NCBI RefSeq assembly: GCF_030273315.1
Contig: NZ_CP127174.1
Coordinates: 2,232,001-2,296,000 of the forward strand
Length of the DNA stretch: 64,000 nucleotides
Reading direction: 5' to 3'
Source: Natrialbaceae archaeon AArc-T1-2
GTDB taxonomy: Archaea > Halobacteriota > Halobacteria > Halobacteriales > Natrialbaceae
Shown piece after piece: positions 36,532 through 36,774 of the stretch; positions within the stretch are counted from its first letter, which is position 1; each line of letters begins with the position of its first letter. A program made the translations under genes and the position numbers. The notes below the pieces were generated by a model, which ran no database searches, was not told where the DNA came from, and saw nothing but the letters and a program-made list of their open reading frames with translations.

Positions 36532-36599
36532 CGGTGTCGAGTAGGGACGCCTCGCCCATACGGGTTGTTTGGCACACGCCAACCGCCCGGCCGGCGTCC

Positions 36600-36757
36600 G
36601 CGTGGCCCGGGGATTCCGGCCAGAGCGGGAGTCCACGCGAAAGCCCCACCCTCAACGAAGCGAACGGCGATAGCGCGGAACGAAGTTCCGCGGACCATTC
36701 GAGCGGGCCTGCGGCCCGCGAGAAGAAGCCGTGAGCGAGTAGGGTGGGGTAGTTTAC
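36600..36757 (+). mobile_element. relict of IS200/IS605-type (IS1341/tnpB) right end with RNA-like fold
   Basis: The gap between the ATPase start and the 3' end of the regulator contains, on the plus strand, a TnpB-C-terminus-like reading frame ending ESPTLNEANGDSAE (similar to the SPTLNE end I remember from haloarchaeal TnpB), then a right-end-like GGGTGGGGTAGTTTAC ending at about 36757. A 9-bp stem (36644-36652 with 36741-36749, CCCCACCCT/AGGGTGGGG) encloses two hairpins: 36674-36681/36685-36692 (8 bp, loop GAA) and 36703-36709/36713-36719 (7 bp, loop TGC). This fold is like the scaffold of IS605 omega-RNAs. No transposase gene remains. Confidence 0.55.
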
Positions 36758-36774
36758 TGAGGTCATGCTGTCGG

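Follow-up and report, generated by a model that had tools for sequence, protein, structure and literature searches.

A truncated IS1341-type right end with a palindromic insert, and a probable two-hairpin mobile element of Halobacteriales

The regulator/copA locus and its transposon relict

The window (the whole 64,000-nt stretch of the Natrialbaceae archaeon AArc-T1-2 genome analysed here) contains a gene for a cysteine-rich HTH regulator followed by copA, a conserved arrangement in this family. Among the 35 relatives examined, most have a short spacer between the two genes that carries the palindrome TTGGCGCACGCCAA. Upstream of copA, the window retains the conserved palindrome TTGGCACACGCCAA (36569–36582, no strand assigned), which recurs in most regulator/copA spacers of the 35 relatives and is undamaged by the insertion described here. 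This palindrome, conserved across Natrialbaceae, is a putative operator, likely of a metal regulator.

Positions 36607–36757 (forward strand, as for all window features below) are, judging from comparison with intact elements, a 5′-truncated right end (RE) of IS1341 type (tnpB-only IS200/IS605), composed of 95 nt derived from the insertion sequence (IS) and a 56-nt insert. The three-stem fold, the TnpB-like frame, and the terminus described in the initial annotation are all present. The frame, a remnant of the 3′ coding end of tnpB (36607–36734), contains GDSGQSGSPRESPTLNEANG, resembles a TnpB C-terminus and reads to a stop codon at 36732–36734; the insert prolongs it to DSAERSSADHSSGPAAREKKP, and nearly the same tail occurs in an intact 442-aa TnpB (L135/L219). 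The 5′ arm of the RE hairpin, CCCCACCCT (36644–36652), forms a 9-bp stem with the 3′ arm, AGGGTGGGG (36741–36749); the stem is conserved in tnpB REs, both in this genome and in others, and here encloses two further hairpins at 36674–36692 (8 bp) and 36703–36719 (7 bp). The RE terminus GGTAGTTTAC (36748–36757) is identical to that found after tnpB at loci L044, L045, L186, L229, and L231–L233. The flank immediately beyond it (36758–36774) does occupy the guide position, in line with the anatomy of IS605-type REs. The fold of 36600–36774 has an energy of −94.2 kcal/mol, vs. −68.7 ± 4.0 kcal/mol for shuffled sequences (z = −6.4), and the RE-only fold yields z = −6.6.

The proposed descent from an IS200/IS605 right end holds: the RE of the window is 96–100% identical to REs behind intact tnpB genes of other haloarchaea. 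In a search of 392 Halobacteriales genomes, the segment 36611–36757 is 98% identical to REs in G409 and G164, 97% in G366 (intact tnpB), and 96% in G257, with shorter matches in G340, G303, G282, and G384; the existence of such related TnpB right ends in haloarchaea favours relatedness. REs in G407 (L229) and G388 (L231) are 100% identical to the left part of the window RE. Comparison with L229 places the 5′ limit of homology at approximately 36607, within the 3′ end of tnpB, hence about 95 nt of the IS are kept in the window. Neither a left end nor tnpB was found at the locus; the genome (3.36 Mb, three contigs) has 17 tnpB genes, none of them at the relict. Several of these genes have an RE of the same design, with the 9-bp CCCCACCCT/AGGGTGGGG stem followed by GGTAGTT. 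The relict is thus like IS1341-type elements and their omega-RNAs (sotRNAs, as in Halobacterium salinarum) in having an RE hairpin, an overlap with the 3′ end of tnpB, and a terminus adjoining a guide-position flank; unlike them, it is 5′-truncated, lacks tnpB, and carries a 56-nt palindrome at the apex of the RE hairpin.

The window RE is seen in none of the regulator/copA spacers shown for the 35 relatives, and it is likewise missing next to the regulator gene in G122, a congeneric genome, and in four neighbouring genera. The insertion at this locus is therefore, as far as these comparisons reach, specific to this genome or its lineage.

The 56-nt insert in the right-end hairpin

The REs at L044 and L045, both behind intact tnpB, are 96–100% identical to the window RE except for one interval. 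In the empty REs the sequence reads ACGGCGA/AGCCGTG, and the window holds 56 nt between the two halves. This palindromic stretch, TAGCGCGG...GAGAAGA (36671–36726, with a placement ambiguous by 2 nt), matches the covariance model R1 described below and lies in the apical GAA loop (GGCGA^AGCC); according to RNA folding, the insertion point is the 3-nt apical loop of the RE hairpin, and the stem is left unaltered. The spacing between the arms is 31–33 nt in insert-free REs vs. 88 nt in the window. Insert-free homologous REs adjoin tnpB at L044, L045, L186, L229, and L231–L233, with a clean empty site (used to define the insert at L044, L045, L229, L231, and L232). The two inner hairpins are those of the insert: the first (36674–36692, 8 bp) shows compensatory changes in the family, and the second (36703–36719) has 7 bp here and 6 bp in the family model. 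Compared with the empty sites, they constitute a foreign 56-nt insert within the RE. The use of the three-stem fold as a sign of an omega-RNA accordingly fails, since two of its stems come from a dispersed palindrome found mostly in protein genes.

The insert is also present in homologous REs at L217, L218, L219, L220, L221, L222, and L224. G366 (L135/L219) encodes a full-length TnpB of 442 aa, with TNB and OrfB_IS605 domains, that ends with SPRESPTLNEANGDSAEQSSANHSSGPAAREKKP, reading through the insert; the TnpB of L224 is full length as well, and several other insert-bearing elements have a broken TnpB. The downstream flanks differ among the insert-bearing loci, so the IS inserted separately at each of them. 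Insert-bearing TnpBs fall into two clades that are approximately 70% identical, both of which also have insert-free members; this could reflect either two insertions or recombination between REs. These sequence comparisons establish that intact ISs either carry or lack the insert at one and the same base, and that the insertion in the window is locus-specific.

Copies of the same element reside in left-end hairpins of IS1341 elements at L095 and L038 and, as judged by flank sequence, at L144 and L233. L095 is the left-end copy of the AArc-T1-2 genome, located upstream of the tnpB of L021. The GA/AGCC motif recurs at both left-end and right-end insertion sites.

A palindromic element family in protein genes

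The core of model R1 is TAGCGCGGARCGAAGYTCCGCGGACCRTTCGAGCGGGCnnnGCCCGCGAGAAGA. The element is 54–56 nt long, begins with TAGC and ends with AAGA, and has two internal hairpins with compensatory changes; its exact limits are uncertain, as some copies also have flanking hairpin sequence in common. No target-site duplication of the element is demonstrable. R1 matches are found in 326 of 392 Halobacteriales genomes, representing 80 of 95 genera, with 2–45 copies per genome in 18 genomes searched more deeply; all these counts are lower bounds, and the E-values of the model are rough. In a sample of 197 genomes of the phylum, 28 have a match, 27 of which belong to Halobacteriales, while the sole match outside the order is marginal (E = 6e-4). 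In this sample, therefore, the element is Halobacteriales-wide and essentially absent elsewhere in the phylum. One scan of viral contigs with a degenerate core pattern gave no exact match. Seven haloarchaeal plasmid records contain matches mostly within genes; on four of them (NZ_CP147842, NZ_CP100003, NZ_CP100403, and NZ_CP026312) the matching gene is merA (mercuric reductase). No publication on the peptide or the DNA core in haloarchaea was found among open-licence papers, which is weak evidence of absence.

Eight copies are detected in the AArc-T1-2 genome: two in IS1341-terminal hairpins and six in conserved genes, namely trpB, valS (near the C-terminal end), moeA, a predicted RND-type transporter, lysS, and gyrB (identities backed by Pfam for all but the transporter). 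Genic copies in other genomes include those in aconitase, a phytoene-desaturase-like oxidoreductase, acyl-CoA ligases, and cupins. When the gyrB and aconitase products are aligned with solved homologues, the element stands out as additional or unaligned sequence.

We analysed the reading frame of the 80 best-scoring copies, each flank being judged alone by GC3–GC2, a composition heuristic. Both flanks are clearly coding in 54 copies; in 45 of them the read-through uses the same strand and a single phase, (GA)T-AGC-GCG, in 9 the calls for the two flanks are discordant, and none is read through in any other phase. Five of the six phases of the element are free of stops, hence the lack of stops cannot explain the use of a single phase. 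The phase in use yields the least hydrophobic peptide, SAERSSADHSSGQSPRE.

Among 30 Natrialbaceae, trpB is filled at the same codon in 6, cleanly empty in 23, and carries another, unrecognised insert in 1. In one filled trpB (G015, L161), a second copy of the element is nested in frame in an older copy. The comparisons thus establish, at the sequence level, a Halobacteriales-wide family of inserts in conserved genes, with a fixed phase and empty alleles.

Alternative readings, mobility, and known systems

We read the relict as the RE of a dead, truncated tnpB element that already had the 56-nt palindrome in its hairpin loop, and assign to this reading a probability of about 0.85. Four other explanations were weighed against it.

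Unlikely, though the best of the four, is that the palindrome is integral and ancestral to these IS REs, from which it spread into genes. Some genic copies (L030, L118, L137) do share the RE-like flanks GCGAACGGCGA..AGCCGTGAGC. However, most genic copies have other flanks, some copies sit in left ends of ISs, and the reading is disfavoured because most REs of TnpBs from this genome and of related TnpBs are without the palindrome.

Less likely again is that the relict is a mobile miniature element (PATE), i.e., a transposase-free IS derivative moved by TnpA in trans. Haloquadratum has terminal-only PATEs that derive from IS605-type elements (PMC3119063), and the AArc-T1-2 genome encodes two Y1 transposases. 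Like PATEs, the relict is IS605-derived, devoid of a transposase, and has near-terminal palindromes (PMC3119063). Unlike them, it has no recognised left end, its homology to the IS ending inside the 3′ end of tnpB, and the 56-nt element itself has no recognised IS ends; moreover, a second copy of the truncated form was not found in the genome.

The initial annotation proposed a functional orphan omega-RNA: the relict would be transcribed and would present the sequence from 36758 onward as a guide to a TnpB from another locus of the genome. The anatomy of the RE and the position of the guide are correct for this, tnpB genes are numerous in the genome (17), and omega-RNAs of haloarchaea are expressed (PMC12558985). 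The scaffold, however, is short. In the solved omega-RNA of ISDra2 it comprises 116 nt, its pseudoknot partner lying at −106 to −102 relative to the guide (PMC10097598); the IS-derived scaffold in the relict has only about 95 nt, which makes a working guide RNA unlikely, although the requirement for a pseudoknot partner is known only for ISDra2 (PMC10097598). The search for a tnpB of the same genome with the same right end came out negative: a near-identical RE follows none of the 17 genes, and the TnpB of L021, which is among the best RE matches in this genome, is only about 50% identical to the TnpBs of the matching ISs. Allowing up to three mismatches, the guide-position flank has 12 forward and 12 reverse matches in the genome, vs. 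11 and 8 for the reversed-pattern control; with matches at about the control level, no second target is indicated. The Rfam search of the relict region gave no match to an omega-RNA or sotRNA family; intact related REs are likewise without a match, so the result is uninformative. The locus is missing in all relatives looked at and hence is not conserved. Given a truncated scaffold, no cognate TnpB, and no second target, a working stand-alone omega-RNA at the relict is unlikely, and guidance of a TnpB in trans by it seems highly improbable.

Least credible of all is that the intragenic copies are not insertions of one element but convergent low-complexity acidic loops: acidic, serine-rich loops are common in halophilic proteins, but the copies show identity at the nucleotide level across 54 nt, their hairpins are conserved and have compensatory changes, the same sequence occurs in unrelated genes and in IS ends, and trpB has empty alleles.

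Under the favoured reading of a truncated RE with an earlier insert, the RE hairpin of the IS lineage would have taken up the 56-nt element in its apical loop before the IS inserted at the locus. The element itself would be a non-autonomous small mobile repeat, whose two hairpins may allow it to move as single-stranded DNA with the help of a Y1 (TnpA-type) transposase acting in trans, the presumed target being hairpin loops with a GA^AGCC-like site. Genic insertions would be retained at sites where the sense phase gives the protein a short, hydrophilic surface loop rich in serine (SAERSSADHSSG..PRE), and in an IS RE the insert would merely lengthen the tip of the right-end hairpin of the omega-RNA, so that a TnpB element could carry it. 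Tolerance at this tip is plausible, as the ISDra2 omega-RNA stays active when a flexible distal stem is deleted (PMC10097598). The choice of a Y1 transposase as the mover is a guess, to which we give somewhat less than even odds; nothing ties the two Y1 transposases of this genome to the element.

Short elements in similar positions have been described before. SMR-A of Haloquadratum walsbyi targets near-terminal palindromes of IS605-type elements, and its mobilisation has been called enigmatic (PMC3119063). Like SMR-A, the present element is short, has no transposase and no target duplication shown (PMC3119063), and resides in near-terminal palindromes of IS605-type elements, both right ends (the window, L217–L222, L224) and left ends (L095, L038, and, by flank, L144 and L233). 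The two are set apart by description: SMR-A is about 110 bp long with prominent inverted terminal repeats, whereas the element has 54–56 bp and two internal hairpins; SMR-A was reported mainly in other mobile elements, whereas most copies of the element lie in protein genes throughout the order.

In-frame read-through in conserved protein genes is a feature of Rickettsia palindromic elements (RPE) (PMC2229807, PMC3767692), and orthologues with empty alleles, as in trpB, are also of the RPE type. RPE, however, have 100–150 bp and are bacterial (Rickettsiales), whereas the element has 54 nt (18 codons), is archaeal, phase-locked in our sample, and also present in IS1341 ends. For Methanocaldococcus jannaschii, palindromic repetitive elements that have coding potential are mentioned (Suyama, 2005, as cited in PMC2229807); they resemble the element as archaeal repeats fused into protein genes, but M. 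jannaschii is a methanogen, not a haloarchaeon, and R1 has essentially no matches outside Halobacteriales in the phylum sample. Taken together, we consider it fairly likely that a 54-nt two-hairpin mobile element, distributed across Halobacteriales, enters loops of the end hairpins of TnpB transposons, where it would alter the tip of natural omega-RNAs of intact elements, and, in one phase, essential genes, as an archaeal counterpart of RPE that prefers hairpin loops as targets and is probably moved in trans by a Y1 transposase.

Palindromic elements that invade genes are known chiefly from Rickettsia. The present family extends over most of the haloarchaeal genera sampled, trpB exists in filled and empty alleles, and the order has culturable hosts with genetics among its members; given such hosts and the insertion motif shared among transposon hairpin loops, the mover can be searched for directly. 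In addition, RE hairpins of intact TnpB elements that carry the element point to a natural position at which additional hairpins may be tolerated by an omega-RNA.

Several minor observations concern the ends of these ISs. Further, different palindromic inserts are seen in or near the arms of the RE hairpin at L221, L222, and L224, and several palindrome families may thus target IS ends. A sub-threshold Rfam match to HgcC (L022:1878–1960, E = 6e-5) lies just beyond a tnpB stop codon, a hint that HgcC-like RNA may be the right-end RNA of an IS1341 element. At L202 and L205, related palindromes are present in reverse orientation at tnpB 3′ ends (GGGCCCGAAGCGCCCG...GCGGGACCGAAGGTCCCGC).
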